Positions 12,136 to 41,869 of a stretch of DNA of 64,000 nucleotides are shown here, one piece after another (position 1 is the stretch's first letter; every line of letters begins with the position of its first letter). The position numbers were made by a program, and so were the translations under genes. The notes beneath the pieces are model-generated. The model was given only the letters and a program-made list of their open reading frames with translations. It was not told the origin of the DNA and ran no database searches. The stretch is from Synergistales bacterium (GTDB taxonomy: Bacteria > Synergistota > Synergistia > Synergistales > Aminithiophilaceae), in NCBI GenBank assembly GCA_018433595.1, contig JAHDQY010000003.1:124001-188000 (forward strand), given 5' to 3'.

Positions 12136-12343
12136 TAGACAGCCGAAGAGTTCCTGGCGGCTCCTCCTTTCCAAACGCGGGAGGTATCCCCGTTTCCGAG
12201 GGGTACCCGATGGTCGGCAGCCCGTGGCCTTTCTTCTCAGTCGGAGAGAGGCTTTAGGTGCTGGAGACTCGGAGGTGTGATTTGATGTCCAATCTCACCG
12301 TAACACGCCGGCAAGGGGAGGGCAAAAAACAAAAGCGAGCAGA
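12136..12343 (-). promoter_or_regulatory. Structured mop leader, candidate molybdenum/tungsten cofactor riboswitch
   Basis: Between the palindromic promoter region (12344-12384) and the leader terminator lies about 200 bases without a gene. It contains a long bulged hairpin (12179-12208; arms GGGTACCCC and GGGG-A-TACC-T-CCC on the minus strand with a GGAAAC-containing loop) and an antiterminator sequence (12159-12167). A leader that ends in a terminator in front of a molybdoenzyme gene is the layout of Moco/Tuco riboswitches. I could not match the conserved core with certainty, so the class is a hypothesis. Confidence 0.5.
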
Positions 12344-32136: not shown

Positions 32137-32165
32137 TTGACCTTTCGGCGGGGCCATGGTATATG
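32137..32165 (+). promoter_or_regulatory. Promoter of the paaK leader
   Basis: TTGACC (32137-32142) and TATATG (32160-32165) are 17 bases apart. Transcription would begin near 32172, 40 bases before the leader peptide. Confidence 0.65.
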
Positions 32166-32211
32166 CTTATCATGTTCGCAGCAGGAATGAGTTTTCTTCG
32201 GAGGCTTTGCC

Positions 32212-32298
32212 ATGACCCCGTCTTTTAGCGAAAACAGCTTCTACTATTATTACGTCTACGGCAGCGCGGGATCCCCAGGGGATCGGTCCGGCGCGTAG
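32212..32298 (+). CDS. Phe/Tyr-rich attenuator leader peptide upstream of paaK
   Basis: A 28-aa open frame, MTPSFSENSFYYYYVYGSAG and 8 more residues, with GGAGG 7 bases before its ATG. Five of the seven codons 32239-32259 are tyrosine and one is phenylalanine (F-Y-Y-Y-Y-V-Y). It is followed at once by two competing RNA structures and a terminator (32266-32358). This is the classic design of an amino-acid-controlled attenuator: ribosome stalling at the Tyr codons should permit the antiterminator. Strongly supported by sequence; not tested. Confidence 0.85.
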   Translation: MTPSFSENSFYYYYVYGSAGSPGDRSGA

Positions 32299-32331
32299 GC
32301 GCGCTTGTTCCGGCCTTTCAGGGGTTCCCGC
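32266..32331 (+). promoter_or_regulatory. Antiterminator of the paaK attenuator
   Basis: GCGGGATCCCC (32266-32276), just after the Tyr codons, can pair with GGGGTTCCCGC (32321-32331), the 5' arm of the terminator, over 11 positions with one mismatch. The two structures exclude each other. A ribosome at the leader stop codon (32296-32298) would favour the terminator, one stalled at the Tyr codons the antiterminator. Confidence 0.75.
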
Positions 32332-32358
32332 TCATGTCTGAGCGGGAACCCCTTTTTT
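32321..32358 (+). terminator. Intrinsic terminator of the paaK attenuator
   Basis: GGGGTTCCCGCTCA (32321-32334) pairs perfectly with TGAGCGGGAACCCC (32339-32352) around a 4-base loop, followed by TTTTTT. It lies 51 bases before the paaK ATG. Confidence 0.9.
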
Positions 32359-32408
32359 ATGCACTCGAGGACGTTCGACGTCTTAATTCGAAAGGGGAAG
32401 ATCACAAC

Positions 32409-33677
32409 ATGAACGCAATGTCCTGTACCGCAACGGCTTCCACGGGCGAGACTGCCAGAACCGGCAGACTTCAGGCACTCATCAGCCGCGTCTGGAATCA
32501 CGTCGGTCCCTACCGCCGCAAGATGGAGGAGGCCGGAATGACGCCCGATGACATCAAAAGCCTCGATGATCTCCGGGCGCTCCCCTTCACGACCAAGGCG
32601 GATCTGCGCGACAACTACCCTCTGGGCCTGCTGGCCTGCGACAGGAAGAAGCTGGTCCGCGTCCACGCCTCGTCGGGGACGACGGGCAAGCCCACCGTCG
32701 TCGCCTACACCGAAGGCGATATCTCCACCTGGAGCGATATCCTGGCTCATCGCCTTGCCGTCGCAGGCCTCACCGACGGCGATGTTTTTCAGGTGGTCCT
32801 CGGCTACGGACTTTTCACGGGCGCCCTGGGTTTTCACTGCGGCGCCGAACGCCTCGGAGCCCTGGTGGTCCCCTCGGGAGGCGGCTTCACCGAACGGCAG
32901 CTTCTCCTCATGGAAGATCTGTCCACGACGGCTTTCACCAGCACCCCTTCTTATGCCCTCCACCTGGCGGAAGTGATCAAGGCCGCCGGCATCCGGGACC
33001 GGCTCTCCCTCCGGTTGGGGATTTTCGGCGCCGAGGCCTGGACGGAGGAGATGCGCCTTCGCATCGAGGAGGATCTTGGCATCGTGGCCATCGACTCTTA
33101 CGGGCTTTCGGAGGTCATCGGCCCCGGCGTTGCCATGGAGTGTCCCCGGCGGTCGGGACTTCATTTCGACCCGGATCACTTCATCATTGAAATCGTCGAT
33201 CCCGAGACGGGGGAAGTCCTTCCCGAAGGAGCCCAGGGCGAGGTGGTCATCACGGCGCTGTCCAAGGAGGCCCTCCCCGTCATCCGCTACCGCACCCGCG
33301 ATCTCTCCCGCCTTCTTCCCGCCGATTGCCCCTGCGGCTGTGGCGAACCGAGGCTGGAGCGGATCAAGGGGCGCTGCGACGACATGCTGATCATCCGCGG
33401 CGTCAACGTGTTCCCCTCACAGGTCGAGGTGGCCCTGAGCCGCGTCGAGGGTCTCTCCCTCCACTACCAGCTCCACGTCGTGAGCGGCGGCGCCATGAAG
33501 GAGCTGAAGGTCCTCTGCGAGGCCGGTGCGCCCGTCAGTGAAGAGGAGGCGCTCTCCCTTTCCCGCAGGGCCGTCAAAGCCATTCAGGCGGTGGCGACGA
33601 TCCGGGCGTCCGTCGAGATCCTCGCTCCGGGTTCGCTGGAACGCAACGGCGGCAAAGCCGTTCGTGTCGTCCGCTGA
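32409..33677 (+). CDS. paaK: Phenylacetate-CoA ligase (aryl-acid CoA ligase)
   Basis: This 422-aa adenylate-forming enzyme activates phenylacetate or a related aryl acid with ATP and CoA. It has the PaaK P-loop-like HASSGTTGKPTVVAYT, FGAEAWTEEMR, DSYGLSEVIGPG, RYRTRDLS and the C-terminal GRCDDMLIIRGVNVFPSQVE. The ATG at 32409 follows AAAGGGG; the frame is open upstream only through the attenuator. In anaerobes the enzyme can serve synthesis of Phe, Tyr and Trp from aryl acids together with indolepyruvate ferredoxin oxidoreductase. Control by a Tyr/Phe leader peptide fits that biosynthetic direction better than breakdown; the direction is an inference. Confidence 0.93.
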   Translation: MNAMSCTATASTGETARTGRLQALISRVWNHVGPYRRKMEEAGMTPDDIKSLDDLRALPFTTKADLRDNYPLGLLACDRKKLVRVHASSGTTGKPTVVAYTEGDISTWSDILAHRLAVAGLTDGDVFQVVLGYGLFTGALGFHCGAERLGALVVPSGGGFTERQLLLMEDLSTTAFTSTPSYALHLAEVIKAAGIRDRLSLRLGIFGAEAWTEEMRLRIEEDLGIVAIDSYGLSEVIGPGVAMECPRRSGLHFDPDHFIIEIVDPETGEVLPEGAQGEVVITALSKEALPVIRYRTRDLSRLLPADCPCGCGEPRLERIKGRCDDMLIIRGVNVFPSQVEVALSRVEGLSLHYQLHVVSGGAMKELKVLCEAGAPVSEEEALSLSRRAVKAIQAVATIRASVEILAPGSLERNGGKAVRVVR

Positions 33678-37354: not shown

Positions 37355-37705
37355 TTATTGATTTTCCAGGGTGCCGTGGAGGGCGAGCCAGAGGCAGGGC
37401 GGGGTTGTCGAGGTGAACAGGAGGCGGTGCCGGCAGTGGGCGGGGATGAAAAGAGCCTGGCCGCTTCGGAGAGAGACCGTCTCCGTCGAGCCGTCGTCCT
37501 GCAGGAAGAGAAGGGTGGCTCTCCCGGAGAGGAGGGCCACCCATTCGTCGTCTTCCTGATCGTACCAGAAGTCTTTCGCCGAGCTCTGACCGCAGGAGAC
37601 GATGCGCTCCAGTCGAAAGGGGCCTCTGCCGGTCAGCAGCGTCTGAAAGAGCTCTTCTTCCGTGGAGGCGGCGACGGCGAAAAGGTCGAAGACGTCAGGC
37701 TTCAT
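37355..37705 (-). CDS. Small cupin-domain protein after butyrate kinase
   Basis: This 116-aa single-domain cupin has WVALLSGRATLLFLQDDG in the first motif and the second motif SLRSGQALFIPAHCRHRLLFTS with metal-ligand type histidines. Its start overlaps the end of the butyrate kinase gene by 11 bases, so it is the last gene of the ptb-buk operon. Proteins of this kind bind metals or small ligands; a regulatory or isomerase role in acid metabolism is possible but not shown. Confidence 0.8.
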   Translation of the reverse strand: MKPDVFDLFAVAASTEEELFQTLLTGRGPFRLERIVSCGQSSAKDFWYDQEDDEWVALLSGRATLLFLQDDGSTETVSLRSGQALFIPAHCRHRLLFTSTTPPCLWLALHGTLENQ

Positions 37706-38786
37706 GCGATGAGGGGTAGATCAGGGCCTTCTCCTCTCCCCGGAGGACGCGGAGAGCCCCCTCGGCGAGAGCCTTCAGTTCGTCCTCCCCAGGATAGACG
37801 AGGATGGGGGCGATGAAGGCCACGCGATGTCTGATGGCTTCGACGAAACGGTCGCTGTAGGCGAGGCCTCCGGTGAGGACGATGGCGTCGACCTCTCCGG
37901 TCAGGGCTGCGGCCTCCGCTCCGATTCCGCGGGCCACCTGATAGGCCATGGCGTTAAAGAGAAGAGTGGCCTTGGCGTCCCCCTCGTCGATGCGGCGGCG
38001 GACCTCCCGGAGGTCGTTGATGCCCAGGTGGGCGACAAGACCGCCCTGGCTGGAGATCTTTCGGAGGAGCTCTTCCAGCGTCAGGGTGCCGCTGTAGGCG
38101 AGGCGCACCAGGTCGCCTGCCGGCAGGGAGCCGGCCCGCTCGGGAGAGAAGGGGCCCTCTCCGTCGAAGGCGTTGTTGACGTCGATGACGCGCCCCTCCT
38201 CGTGGGCTCCGATAGAGATGCCGCTTCCGAGATGGGCGACGACGAGGCGGCATCTTTCGTAGGCTTTCCCCAGGTCGGCGGCGGCTCTGCGTCCGATGGC
38301 CTTGTGGTTCAGGGCATGAAAGATGGAACGGCGTTCGATTTCAGGAAATCCCGAGAGCCGGGCTTCGGGGATCATCTCGTCGACGACGACCGGATCGACG
38401 GTGAAGGCCTCCTTGCCTCCGGCCTCATCGGCCAGGTCCCTGGCCAGAAGGGCCCCCAGATTGGAGGCATGGATGCCGTACCGGCCCGAAAGGAGATCGG
38501 CCGCCATGGCGGCGTTGACGGTGTAGGTTCCCCCTCTGACGGGAGCCATCAGGCCGCCTCGGCCGACGAAGGCGTCGATCTCGCGAAGAGTCCGGCCCCG
38601 CTCCTCAAGGATTTTGTGGATGGCCTCAAGGCGCATTTCACGCTGGTTCAGGACGTTGGGGATTTTCTTGAGCGTTTCCAGATCATAGCGTTGCGTGTGA
38701 TTGCCCAGCTCACGATCGTCCTCGTAGAGGGCGATCTTGGTGCTCGTCGAACCAGGGTTGATGGCCAGGATGCGGAAGCTCTTCAC
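37695..38786 (-). CDS. buk: Butyrate kinase (copy 1)
   Basis: This 363-aa kinase of the acetate/butyrate kinase family converts an acyl phosphate and ADP to acid and ATP. It has the N-terminal phosphate loop INPGSTSTKIALYEDD, VGRGGLMAPVRGGTYTVN, VVAHLGSGISIGAHEEGRVIDV and VDAIVLTGGLAYS. The gene follows a phosphotransbutyrylase gene (38835-39755) by 48 bases and is followed by a cupin gene. It should yield ATP from butyryl- or branched acyl-CoA made in amino acid fermentation. The second copy lies at 40718-41821, and the two sequences are clearly distinct. Confidence 0.93.
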   Translation of the reverse strand: MKSFRILAINPGSTSTKIALYEDDRELGNHTQRYDLETLKKIPNVLNQREMRLEAIHKILEERGRTLREIDAFVGRGGLMAPVRGGTYTVNAAMAADLLSGRYGIHASNLGALLARDLADEAGGKEAFTVDPVVVDEMIPEARLSGFPEIERRSIFHALNHKAIGRRAAADLGKAYERCRLVVAHLGSGISIGAHEEGRVIDVNNAFDGEGPFSPERAGSLPAGDLVRLAYSGTLTLEELLRKISSQGGLVAHLGINDLREVRRRIDEGDAKATLLFNAMAYQVARGIGAEAAALTGEVDAIVLTGGLAYSDRFVEAIRHRVAFIAPILVYPGEDELKALAEGALRVLRGEEKALIYPSSHEA

Positions 38787-38834
38787 CGTCTCTCCTCCTT
38801 TCGAGCCGTCAGGGGATCTTCAGGGGGGCGGGTC

Positions 38835-39755
38835 TCAGCGGTCGCGGTGGGCGGCGAGGGCTACGGCGGAGGCGATGGAGAGGAGCTTCGTCTCGGCCGA
38901 ATCGGCCCGGCTTGTGAGAACGATGGGGGCGGCGGCGCCGAGGACGAGTCCCGCCGTGCGGTTCTTGGCGAAGTAGACGATGGCCTTGGCGAGCATGTTG
39001 CCGGCTTCGATGTCGGGGACGAGGAGCACGTCGGCCTTGCCGGCCACTTCGGAGACGATGCCCTTGTGGCGGGCCGACTCCTCGCTGATGGCGTTGTCGA
39101 GAGCCAGGGGACCGTCGACGTCGCAGCCCTTGATCTGTCCCCGGCGGCCCATCTGGGCGATGGCTGCCGCATCGAGGGTGCAGGGCATGGCGGGGTTGAC
39201 GACCTCGACGGCGGCGAGGACGGCGACCTTGGGTTTGGCAACGCCGAAGGCATGTCCCAGTTCGACGGTGTTGGTGAGGATCTTCACCTTGTCCGGGAGT
39301 TCGGGGTACATGTTGAAGGCCGGATCGGCGATGAAGAAGATGCGGTCGTAGCCTTCGACTTCGTGGATGTAGACGTGAGAGATGAGGGACTTGCTCCGCA
39401 GCCCCACCTCCTTGTTGAGGACGGCCCGGAGGAAGTCGGCCGTGTGGAGCATGCCTTTCATGAGGATGTCGGCCTTGCCCGACGAGACGAGCTTCACGGC
39501 TTCGAGGGCGGCCTTGTCGTGTCCTCCCTTGACGTCGACGACGTCGTAGTCGGTCAGCTTGACGCCGAGGGGCTTGGCGGCTTCGGCGATCTTGTCGGCG
39601 TCTCCGACAAGGATGGCCTTGGCGATGCCCCGGGAGCGGGCGTTTTCGACGGCCTCAAGGACCTCGGCATCTTCGGCGGCCGCGACGGCCACCGTACGGG
39701 GGCCGACGGATTTGGCGTAGTCCAGGAGCTGATTGAGAGAGCGGATCTGTTCCAA
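38835..39755 (-). CDS. ptb: Phosphate butyryltransferase (copy 1)
   Basis: This 306-aa enzyme transfers an acyl group from CoA to phosphate. It shows VAVAAAEDAEVLEAVENARSRG at the N-terminus, ADILMKGMLHTADFLRAVLN, and the C-terminal NMLAKAIVYFAKNRTAGLVLGAAAPIVLTSRAD. The start is a TTG at 39755 with AAGGAGG 8 bases before it; further upstream the frame has no credible ribosome site. It forms an operon with buk and the small cupin. It probably handles butyryl-, isobutyryl- or isovaleryl-CoA. Confidence 0.92.
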   Translation of the reverse strand: MEQIRSLNQLLDYAKSVGPRTVAVAAAEDAEVLEAVENARSRGIAKAILVGDADKIAEAAKPLGVKLTDYDVVDVKGGHDKAALEAVKLVSSGKADILMKGMLHTADFLRAVLNKEVGLRSKSLISHVYIHEVEGYDRIFFIADPAFNMYPELPDKVKILTNTVELGHAFGVAKPKVAVLAAVEVVNPAMPCTLDAAAIAQMGRRGQIKGCDVDGPLALDNAISEESARHKGIVSEVAGKADVLLVPDIEAGNMLAKAIVYFAKNRTAGLVLGAAAPIVLTSRADSAETKLLSIASAVALAAHRDR

Positions 39756-39828
39756 GAGTATCTCCTCCTTAAAAGATGGATAAGAGTGACTCACCCTGAC
39801 AGGACCCTGGAGTCTCAAGAATTATACC

Positions 39829-40728
39829 CTATGCCAGGAGAACGCCGAGGGCGATGGAGAGAAGTTTCGTCTCGGCGCTGTCGGTGCGGCTTGTGAGGAC
39901 GACGGGGGCTCTGGCTCCGAGGACGGCTCCGGCGCCCCGGCAGCCGATCAGACTCAGGGCGACCTTGCCCACCAGATTGCCCGCCTCGATATGGGGCAGA
40001 AGAAGGATGTCGGCGTTGCCGGCTATGGGGGTGTCGATCTCTCTGAAGCAGCCTGCCTCGGCACCGACGGCCTGATCCAGGGTGAGGGGGCCGTCGAGGA
40101 GGCAGTTCCCGATCTGGCCGCGCCTGTTCATCAACGTCAGGGCGGCGGCGTCGAGGGTGCAGGGCATGGCGGGATCGATCCTTTCGACGGCGGCGAGGGC
40201 AGCGACACGGGGTCTTTCGACGCCGAGACGGCGGAGGCAGGAGACGGCGTTTTCAACGATTTGCACCTTGTCCTGCAAGGCGGGGTAGGTGTTGAGTCCC
40301 CCGTCGGTTACGGCGACGACGCGGTGGAGTCGGGGGATTTCGAGGAAGAAGAGATGGGAAAGGACGCTTCCCGCGCGCAGGCCTCTCTCCTTGTCGAGAA
40401 CGGCCTTGAGGAGCGTCGCCGTCTTGACCTGCCCCTTCATGACCAGCTGCGCCTCGCCGGAGGCCACGATGGCGACGGCGCGCCGGGAGGCCTCGCCGTC
40501 GTCGGGTTCGTCGACGATTTCGCAGCGGCCAAGGTCGAGACCGAGCTCCTGAATCATCCCGCCGATACGTCTTCTGTCGCCCAAAAGGAGCGGTTCGACG
40601 ATGCCCTCCCGCCGCGCCTCGTCGAGGGCGCAGAGAACGTCGGCATCCTGAGCCGCGGCGACGGCGACGCGTGGGGGTGTCTTCCCGCGGCAGCGTTCCA
40701 GCAAGAAGTCCAGGGTGTCAAAGGCCAC
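39829..40728 (-). CDS. Phosphate butyryltransferase-like enzyme (copy 2)
   Basis: This 299-aa paralogue of the previous ptb product has VAVAAAQDADVLCALDEARREG, QLVMKGQVKTATLLKAVLDKE and GAVLGARAPVVLTSRTDSAETKLLS. An in-frame GTG at 40749 adds seven residues, but AAAGAGG with 8 bases spacing supports the GTG at 40728, overlapping the second butyrate kinase gene by 11 bases. The gene order here is kinase then transferase, the reverse of copy 1. The shared C-terminal pattern shows the same family; a different acyl chain preference is a reasonable guess. Confidence 0.88.
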   Translation of the reverse strand: MAFDTLDFLLERCRGKTPPRVAVAAAQDADVLCALDEARREGIVEPLLLGDRRRIGGMIQELGLDLGRCEIVDEPDDGEASRRAVAIVASGEAQLVMKGQVKTATLLKAVLDKERGLRAGSVLSHLFFLEIPRLHRVVAVTDGGLNTYPALQDKVQIVENAVSCLRRLGVERPRVAALAAVERIDPAMPCTLDAAALTLMNRRGQIGNCLLDGPLTLDQAVGAEAGCFREIDTPIAGNADILLLPHIEAGNLVGKVALSLIGCRGAGAVLGARAPVVLTSRTDSAETKLLSIALGVLLA

Positions 40729-41821
40729 GGTTTTTGCCTCTTTCGACACTCTCCCGGTAGCTTCGCCCCTCTTCCTCCCCCCTGAGGACTGCCAGGGCTC
40801 CCTCGGCCAGAGCCGGCAGCTCGTCCTCGCCGGGGTAGGCGAGGACGGGGGCTATCCACTGAAGGCGGCCCGTGAGGTCGACTCGAAGTTCCTTGTCATA
40901 GGCCATTCCTCCGGTGAGGACGACCGCTTTGACGTCGCCTTCCAGGGCGGCGGCCATGGCGCCAGCCTCCTTGGCGACCTGGAAGAGGAGGGATCGGAGG
41001 ACGAGGGCCGTCTCTTCGTCGCCTTCGTCGATGCGCCGTCGCAGCTCCCTCAGATCGTCGCTGCCGCAATAGGCGGAGAGGCCGCCCTTTTTCGCGAGCC
41101 CTTCGAGCATCTCCTTCTCGCTGTAGCGGCCGGAGAAACAGAGCCGTACCAGATCACCCGCCGGAACGCCTCCGGCCCTGTTGGGAGAGAAGGGCCCGAA
41201 GTCGTTGGCGTTGTTGACGTCGATCATTTCTCCTCCTCTCATTGCGACGACGGAAATGCCGCCGCCGAGGTGAATGACGACGAAGTTGACGGAGCGCCAG
41301 TCCATGTGAAGTTCACGAGCCGCCTTTTTGGCGGTGGCTCGAACGTTGAGGGCGTGGACAAGGGAGCGTTTGGGGAGCTCGGGGAGCCCTGTGAGGCGGG
41401 CCTCGGGGATCAGTTCATCGACGGCGACGGGATCGACGATGTAGGCGGGTATGGAGAGTCTGTCGGCCAGGGCGCGGGCGATGAGGCCGCCCAGGTTCGA
41501 AGGGTGCTCCCAGGGGCGTCCCCGACGCAGGTGTTCGACGAGGAGGTCGTCGATGACGTAGGTGCCTCCGTGAACCGGTTCGATGATGCCGCCGCGGCCC
41601 ACGATGGCCGAGAGCTCCTCCACGGCCGAGCCGCGTTTTCTGACGGCGGCCTTGACGGCTTCGAGGCGGTAGTCGAACTGATCGATCACAGAGGGGAATC
41701 TTGTAAGCTGGGCAGGGCTGTGGAGAAGGTTCTCCCGCCAGAGCTCCCGGTCTTCCTGGTACCAGGCGATCTTGGTTCCCGTGCTGCCGGTGTTGATGGC
41801 AAGGAGAATCTTTTCTTTCAT
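40718..41821 (-). CDS. Butyrate kinase-like enzyme (copy 2)
   Basis: This 367-aa acyl kinase has AINTGSTGTKIAWYQED, VGRGGIIEPVHGGTYV, VVIHLGGGISVVAMRGGEMIDV and KAVVLTGGMAYDK. Three consecutive ATG codons (41827, 41824, 41821) follow GAGGGAG; the third has the best spacing. A promoter (TTTCCA-17-TATAAT) lies at 41870-41898. It is first in the second acyl-phosphate operon, followed by the ptb paralogue. It likely makes ATP from branched or aryl acyl phosphates. Confidence 0.9.
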   Translation of the reverse strand: MKEKILLAINTGSTGTKIAWYQEDRELWRENLLHSPAQLTRFPSVIDQFDYRLEAVKAAVRKRGSAVEELSAIVGRGGIIEPVHGGTYVIDDLLVEHLRRGRPWEHPSNLGGLIARALADRLSIPAYIVDPVAVDELIPEARLTGLPELPKRSLVHALNVRATAKKAARELHMDWRSVNFVVIHLGGGISVVAMRGGEMIDVNNANDFGPFSPNRAGGVPAGDLVRLCFSGRYSEKEMLEGLAKKGGLSAYCGSDDLRELRRRIDEGDEETALVLRSLLFQVAKEAGAMAAALEGDVKAVVLTGGMAYDKELRVDLTGRLQWIAPVLAYPGEDELPALAEGALAVLRGEEEGRSYRESVERGKNRGL

Positions 41822-41869
41822 CATCATCTCTCCCTCTGTCGATGTTCGCAATTTTCAGGCCTCTTTTTG

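Follow-up and report, generated by a model that had tools for sequence, protein, structure and literature searches.

Many anaerobes have arylacetate ligases and ferredoxin-dependent 2-oxoacid oxidoreductases, and whether these serve to build amino acids or to break them down can seldom be told from sequence alone. The question is raised by a locus in a 64,000-nucleotide stretch of a Synergistales genome (contig JAHDQY010000003.1; the whole stretch is hereafter called the window), where the gene for a PaaK-like ligase follows what a sequence-only reading took to be a Tyr/Phe leader-peptide attenuator. As attenuators of this type belong to biosynthetic operons, that reading placed the ligase, together with an indolepyruvate ferredoxin oxidoreductase (IOR), in the synthesis of Phe and Tyr and not in degradation. 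The reading that we favour, with a probability of roughly 0.8, is ribosome-mediated attenuation, governed by Tyr-tRNA, of an arylacetate-CoA ligase (probably for 4-hydroxyphenylacetate) that serves the reductive rebuilding of Tyr via IOR.

The ligase and its upstream region were searched for in 81 genomes of the order. G-numbers refer to genomes (G000 is the window genome, the others are genomes of the same order) and L-numbers to loci.

Leader and competing helices in the window

The features of the locus are listed in Table 1. The 28-codon leader with its aromatic run and GGAGG site, the 11-position antiterminator and the terminator with T6 that had been read from the sequence are all present, the 14 terminator pairs being made up of 13 bp (GGGGTTCCCGCTC/GAGCGGGAACCCC) plus an A-U in the hairpin at 32320-32353, with T6 at 32353-32358. 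The terminator 5' arm (32321-32331) doubles as the 3' strand of the antiterminator, and this strand, GGGGTTCCCGC, pairs with GCGGGATCCCC at 10 of 11 positions, leaving one U-U. The basal stem of the protector hairpin P1 is formed by 32264-32267 with 32291-32294.

Table 1. Features of the attenuator and of the gene that it precedes, in window coordinates.
Feature	Position	Strand	Basis
Sigma-70-like promoter, TTGACC-(17)-TATATG	32137..32165	+	direct sequence
Shine-Dalgarno GGAGG of the leader ORF	32200..32204	+	direct sequence
Leader ORF MTPSFSENSFYYYYVYGSAGSPGDRSGA, 28 codons + TAG, ATG at 32212	32212..32298	+	direct sequence; homologous leaders in relatives
Control codons Phe-Tyr-Tyr-Tyr-Tyr-Val-Tyr	32239..32259	+	direct sequence; Tyr run kept in 17 Tyr-clade rows
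Protector hairpin P1, sequesters antiterminator strand	32264..32294	+	covariation, 29 sequences
Antiterminator 5' strand GCGGGATCCCC	32266..32276	+	pairs with 32321-32331; partner-permutation energies
Intrinsic terminator, 13 bp + A-U, then T6	32320..32358	+	direct sequence, folding; kept in relatives
Controlled gene, PaaK-like arylacetate-CoA ligase, 422 aa (P0001)	32409..33677	+	superfamily domains PF00501 + PF14535

The fold of the leader RNA beats 200 of 200 dinucleotide shuffles (z -3.1). Short ORFs are common, and an aromatic-rich one could by chance lie beside the ordinary terminator of the upstream gene. However, six Tyr/Phe within eight codons of a small ORF were reached in only 6 of 20,000 dinucleotide shuffles of 32166-32320, and the arrangement recurs with covariation across the order. 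It is this conservation, far stronger evidence than the folding or shuffle statistics, that refutes the chance explanation. An Rfam search covering the window leader and those of 20 loci gave no family match, and a T-box riboswitch was rejected, as none of these leaders matches the T-box covariance model.

The ligase start is preceded by the purine-rich stretch AAAGGGGAAGA and agrees with that of relatives; an alternative in-frame ATG at 32334 sits inside the terminator loop. The protein shares its domains and whole-length similarity with the PaaK phenylacetate-CoA ligases (TIGR02155; PDB 2y27, 2y4o, 4r1l), its best structure match being 2y27 (E 8e-120). However, it differs from them in its leader-peptide regulation and in scoring 487.2 bits against TIGR02155, under the equivalog cut-off of 646.3, and the PaaK equivalog criterion is not met.

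Conservation and covariation across the order

In about 20 relatives the orthologous ligase follows the same leader-terminator layout. Within the genus, Tyr-clade leaders were found in G001-G003, and beyond it in families f3, f4, f6, f7 and f10, examples being MTRSLFTNGYYYVYGSAGSPGDRSGA, ...AAYYYYYAYRNAGASGRQSGV, ...TSFAFTYYYANVGPPLRADA, ...GFYFYYFTGVGPPQRFDA and ...AGFFFSFYYYVNVGPPGETDV. Alignment of the upstream regions, which the sequence-only reading had proposed as the check on its claim, bears it out: the N-terminal parts of the leaders vary freely, while the aromatic run, the segment that follows it and the terminator are kept. Most of these leaders are preceded by GGAGG or AGGAG, the TTGAC-(17)-TATA layout is likewise seen 5' of leaders in relatives, L008 among them, and the T-run mostly ends about 55-60 nt past the leader stop. 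In one locus, L223 (G041:C76:1304-1425, + strand), an intact Tyr/Phe leader and terminator are followed by what appears to be a direct fusion of the first few ligase codons to the last few; the body of the ligase thus seems to have been deleted and the leader orphaned.

The RNA structure was assessed on an alignment of 29 leaders (A1). For P1 plus the terminator, 95.8% of cells are paired, seven pairs have changed on both sides and none of 500 shuffles equals the alignment, although the pairing figure leans favourable since the structure was derived from A1 itself. P1 alone has 97.4% of cells paired in the 29 sequences and four pairs with changes on both sides. In A1 the antiterminator register differs by one or two columns from one group to another, and duplex energies and per-sequence registers were therefore used for this helix. 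The mean duplex energy is -16.9 kcal/mol with a leader's own partner versus -15.1 with swapped partners (0 of 5000 permutations as low). At the fourth antiterminator pair, most Tyr leaders and two of the Phe leaders have A-U, three leaders have G-U, and others have U-G or U-A. Counted from the last aromatic codon, the GGG of the antiterminator strand usually follows after about 9 nt. Neither this partner-swap test nor the tree labels used below are fully corrected for relatedness.

On these comparisons of sequence the locus meets the criteria of an attenuator: a short ORF with a ribosome-binding site 5' of a structural gene; a codon run, conserved in relatives, for one or related amino acids (that the gene serves Tyr production is inferred); and a mutually exclusive antiterminator and terminator with a protector hairpin. 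The translated leader with a regulatory codon run, the competing protector, antiterminator and terminator helices, and the terminator before the structural gene are all shared with the classical ribosome-mediated attenuators of the trp, his and pheA operons of enterobacteria (PMC9413887). Unlike these, the Synergistota version controls an arylacetate-CoA ligase, has no Rfam match, and carries its antiterminator strand inside the leader ORF, directly after the codon run.

Codon runs and ligase phylogeny

The window genome has three such ligases, each with its own leader and terminator: that of the window (Tyr leader), a Phe-leader ligase (G000:C64:10524, leader MSRRSVFTMVFSFTNAGPAPGSA ending at a stop) and a Trp-leader ligase (G000:C15:67896, leader MSRAEYNRCDSFDMTGRWWWYRNRR, likewise). 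The same three ligase-leader sets are found in G001, G002 and G003, and the second ligase of other genera carries Phe runs (RFFFFFSAGP, CSFFFFFTGAGP, GFFFFTNVGP). In family f5 two ligases are in tandem, the first with an FSF leader and the second with VYSY, which contains only two Tyr codons.

Leader codon identity tracks ligase clade: in a 75-ligase tree, the codon label changes 7 times versus 41 when shuffled. The Tyr-leader group is a clade (100/96), the only other row of which, L021, ends at a contig edge with its upstream region unseen, and the Trp-leader group is also a clade with full support (100/100). The Tyr-leader ligases of f5 are placed among the Phe-type ligases of this tree, which suggests that their Tyr codons arose by an independent switch; the wider Phe-type grouping has moderate support (80/78).

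Seven columns separate the Tyr and Phe types and also differ between the f5 tandem copies. At three of them (T177, A210, S230) the f5 Tyr-leader copy has the residue of the Tyr clade and the Phe-leader copy that of the Phe clade (A, P, I), as would be seen with convergence; at columns 131 and 139 the Tyr-leader copy leaves the Phe state for a third residue, and no reverse match between the tandem copies was found among the seven. Together with L131, A139 and S178, the same three residues distinguish the Tyr clade of the window ligase from the Phe-type state when it is compared with PaaK. The discriminating columns lie in segments that we take to line the acyl pocket of related enzymes.

Since separate Phe- and Trp-leader ligases exist in the same genome, the window ligase looks specific to Tyr, and 4-hydroxyphenylacetate is its probable substrate, although this is inferred without enzyme data. 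Some Tyr-clade leaders are as rich in Phe codons as in Tyr codons (e.g. GFVYFY, FFFSFYYY), and sensing may for this reason be mixed Tyr/Phe.

The f5 genomes also have iorAB-paaK operons (L092-L102, L069-L085), the ligases of which have no aromatic leader; in some there is a terminator-like hairpin 5' of iorA. Most of these iorAB-linked ligases have P131, W136 and G178 in common with the Trp-leader ligases, and they may thus be indoleacetate ligases. No comparable leader was found with ligases outside Synergistota in the genome collection, in which only close relatives were reached.

The same chassis before other amino-acid genes

A covariance model built on the ligase leaders (R1) was used to find further leaders, and its matches indicate that the same RNA chassis, with matching codon runs, precedes other amino-acid genes. 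Ile-run leaders (e.g. SSQAIIIIADAAPPRGNGD, then a stop) lie before a threonine/serine-dehydratase-like PALP enzyme in L190 (G000:C70:95959-96079, - strand), L198, L199 and L227; a second Ile-rich leader-like RNA of the window genome, also filed under L190 (G000:C70:97399-97519, - strand), lies before an AzlC family gene. Ile runs (IIIIII..NAAPPRRIGV, then a stop) are further found before a 2-oxoacid:ferredoxin oxidoreductase operon in L202, L209, L211, L215, L217, L220, L222 and L229. This operon has the order gamma-delta-alpha-beta (TIGR02175 for gamma), and its leader suggests reductive synthesis of isoleucine from 2-methylbutyryl-CoA. An Ala-run leader (MNQAKRFLVAAAAMATGGPPGGAGAP, then a stop) precedes a class I/II aminotransferase in L191 (G000:C3:23639-23757, + strand), and leaders rich in Val, Leu and Ile precede the acetolactate synthase small subunit in L192, L201, L207, L212 and L213. 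Phe-run leaders are seen before PheC-like proteins in L210 (G015:C28) and L221 (G010:C14), the best solved relatives of which are cyclohexadienyl dehydratases (3kbr, E 4e-90). Finally, mostly Phe/Tyr/Trp-rich leaders precede a sodium:solute symporter and membrane proteins without a Pfam family, possibly transporters of aromatic amino acids, in L193-L197, L205, L206, L214, L224, L225, L226 and L228.

For all genes whose function is understood, the codon run agrees with the product, and the expectation that attenuators of this type belong to biosynthetic operons is met in that the chassis precedes known amino-acid biosynthesis genes. This sharing is the strongest argument for placing the ligases on the biosynthesis side. 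It also separates the system from trp, his and pheA: within one phylum, a single chassis in which the codons are swapped is used by many gene families. We lean towards the broader proposal that a single modular Synergistota attenuator chassis with exchangeable codon runs governs genes for amino-acid rebuilding, and that the run reveals the substrate of an enzyme that is otherwise unassigned: Tyr, Phe and Trp leaders would mark ligases for 4-hydroxyphenylacetate, phenylacetate and indoleacetate, respectively, and the Ile leader a reductive oxidoreductase toward isoleucine.

Many leaders encode G-P-P or a similar motif after the codon run, as might a TnaC-like nascent-peptide arrest or a polyproline-pause sensor responding to a small molecule or EF-P, in which the conserved GPP, and not the aromatic codons, would be active. 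However, the codons of the motif are those of the GGGACCCC antiterminator strand, and the motif varies along with the RNA, being GSP in the window, GAS in G017 and absent from Trp leaders. Additionally, different genes have different residue runs (Tyr, Phe, Trp, Ile, Val/Leu or Ala), a pattern that speaks for codon sensing, and we regard peptide arrest as very improbable.

IOR, the chorismate route and the direction of the ligase

The aryl-acid route requires an AMP-forming arylacetate ligase and IOR in one genome, and this criterion is met. An IOR accompanies the ligase as had been supposed, but only at the level of the genome: it lies on another contig (G000:C38:84913-86733), following a gene that reads as thioesterase-like from its translation, and a tblastn search with the IorA and IorB of the genome found no indolepyruvate:ferredoxin oxidoreductase in the window. 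No leader was seen 5' of iorA in the window genome, nor in the iorAB-linked operons of f5 and f3.

Two other features were recorded in the window itself. A Moco (molybdenum/tungsten cofactor) riboswitch (Rfam RF01055, 59.1 bits) lies at 12148-12286 (- strand), and 37695-41851 (- strand) holds two successive gene pairs that, from their translations, resemble butyrate kinase plus phosphate butyryltransferase.

PaaK homologues are best known from phenylacetate degradation, with the nearest solved structures being such enzymes; Synergistota ferment amino acids, and IOR-alpha-like genes are universal in the genome set (81 of 81 genomes, 70 above the curated cut-off). The attenuator could then be real and the ligase nevertheless degrade or detoxify arylacetates as PaaK does in aerobes, with Tyr starvation merely a scavenging cue. 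However, induction by lack of an amino acid would have the wrong sign for this, Phe- and Trp-codon leaders belong to different paralogues, and elsewhere the chassis precedes biosynthesis or transport genes. A degradative role is therefore unlikely, as judged without a search for the later steps of phenylacetate degradation. The anabolic reading is the best one because the run and terminator are conserved, the paralogues carry Phe and Trp runs, codon identity matches ligase clade, and the chassis is found on known biosynthesis genes. It upholds the earlier proposal of synthesis over degradation; the reductive direction remains an inference, very likely in our judgement and made without growth or enzyme data.

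The anabolic reading is strengthened by genomes that keep the ligase without the chorismate route. In eight of the 22 genomes with a Tyr-leader ligase, chorismate synthase, PDT and PDH all go undetected above cut-off. Six of these genomes are 93-99% complete (G026, G028, G035, G042, G068 and G069) and two are poorer (G039 and G062). Retention of the ligase where the chorismate route is undetected, a supporting but not defining criterion, is thus met in eight genomes. Several of these are drafts, in which absence is not proof, and organisms without the route may also import amino acids. The genus of the window has chorismate synthase, PDT, PDH and TrpA; there the ligases would accordingly be a salvage branch, and the ligase is not the sole source of Tyr.

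Proposed mechanism and relation to known systems

We regard it as nearly certain that the attenuator responds to the supply of Tyr, perhaps also of Phe, although the response is inferred without expression data. The leader would sense charged tRNA-Tyr, and possibly also tRNA-Phe. When Tyr-tRNA is plentiful, the ribosome would pass the Tyr codons and reach the UAG, P1 would re-form over the antiterminator strand, and with P1 in place the terminator would fold and the ligase be switched off. When Tyr-tRNA is short, the ribosome is inferred to stall on the Tyr run, some 9 nt 5' of the GGGATCCCC strand. A ribosome of the usual footprint that stalls there would block P1 by occupying the 5' base of the hairpin, but would not cover the antiterminator strand; the freed strand could pair with the terminator 5' arm, and transcription would proceed into the ligase gene.

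The ligase is predicted to activate 4-hydroxyphenylacetate to its CoA ester, from which IOR, working reductively with CO2, would yield 4-hydroxyphenylpyruvate and a transaminase then Tyr. The Phe- and Trp-leader ligases would act likewise, from phenylacetate to Phe and from indoleacetate to Trp. AMP-forming chemistry favours CoA-ester formation.

An aryl-acid route is known from rumen bacteria (Allison 1965, cited in PMC7356843) and from the methanogen Methanococcus maripaludis (Porat et al., cited in PMC4162585). The route predicted in Synergistota resembles it in the activation of an arylacetate to a CoA ester, reductive carboxylation by IOR and transamination, and differs in its separate Tyr, Phe and Trp ligases, each predicted to be under a codon-specific leader. 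In Bacteroides, an AMP-forming arylacetate-CoA ligase lies beside IOR, and a 2026 study proposed a biosynthetic role for it with the argument from AMP-forming chemistry (PMC13285125). The pairing of ligase with IOR and the proposed role are common to both systems; however, the Bacteroides case rests on gene neighbourhood and an enzyme assay, whereas that in Synergistota is built on regulation, ligase and IOR being physically unlinked in the window genome. A literature search on leader peptides with phenylacetate-CoA ligase or Synergistetes found no paper on such control. What is novel is the application of classical attenuation to arylacetate ligases, the tracking of enzyme clade by codon identity, and a chassis that is phylum-wide.

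Where ligase and oxidoreductase sequences leave the direction of the pathway undecided, a codon-specific leader gives both a direction and a predicted substrate. The findings suggest that the phylum rebuilds aromatic amino acids from the corresponding acids with one dedicated, separately controlled ligase for each, including in lineages without the chorismate route, and they provide a candidate, open to direct test, for the enzyme by which phenylacetate and related acids are activated in anaerobic aromatic amino-acid synthesis.
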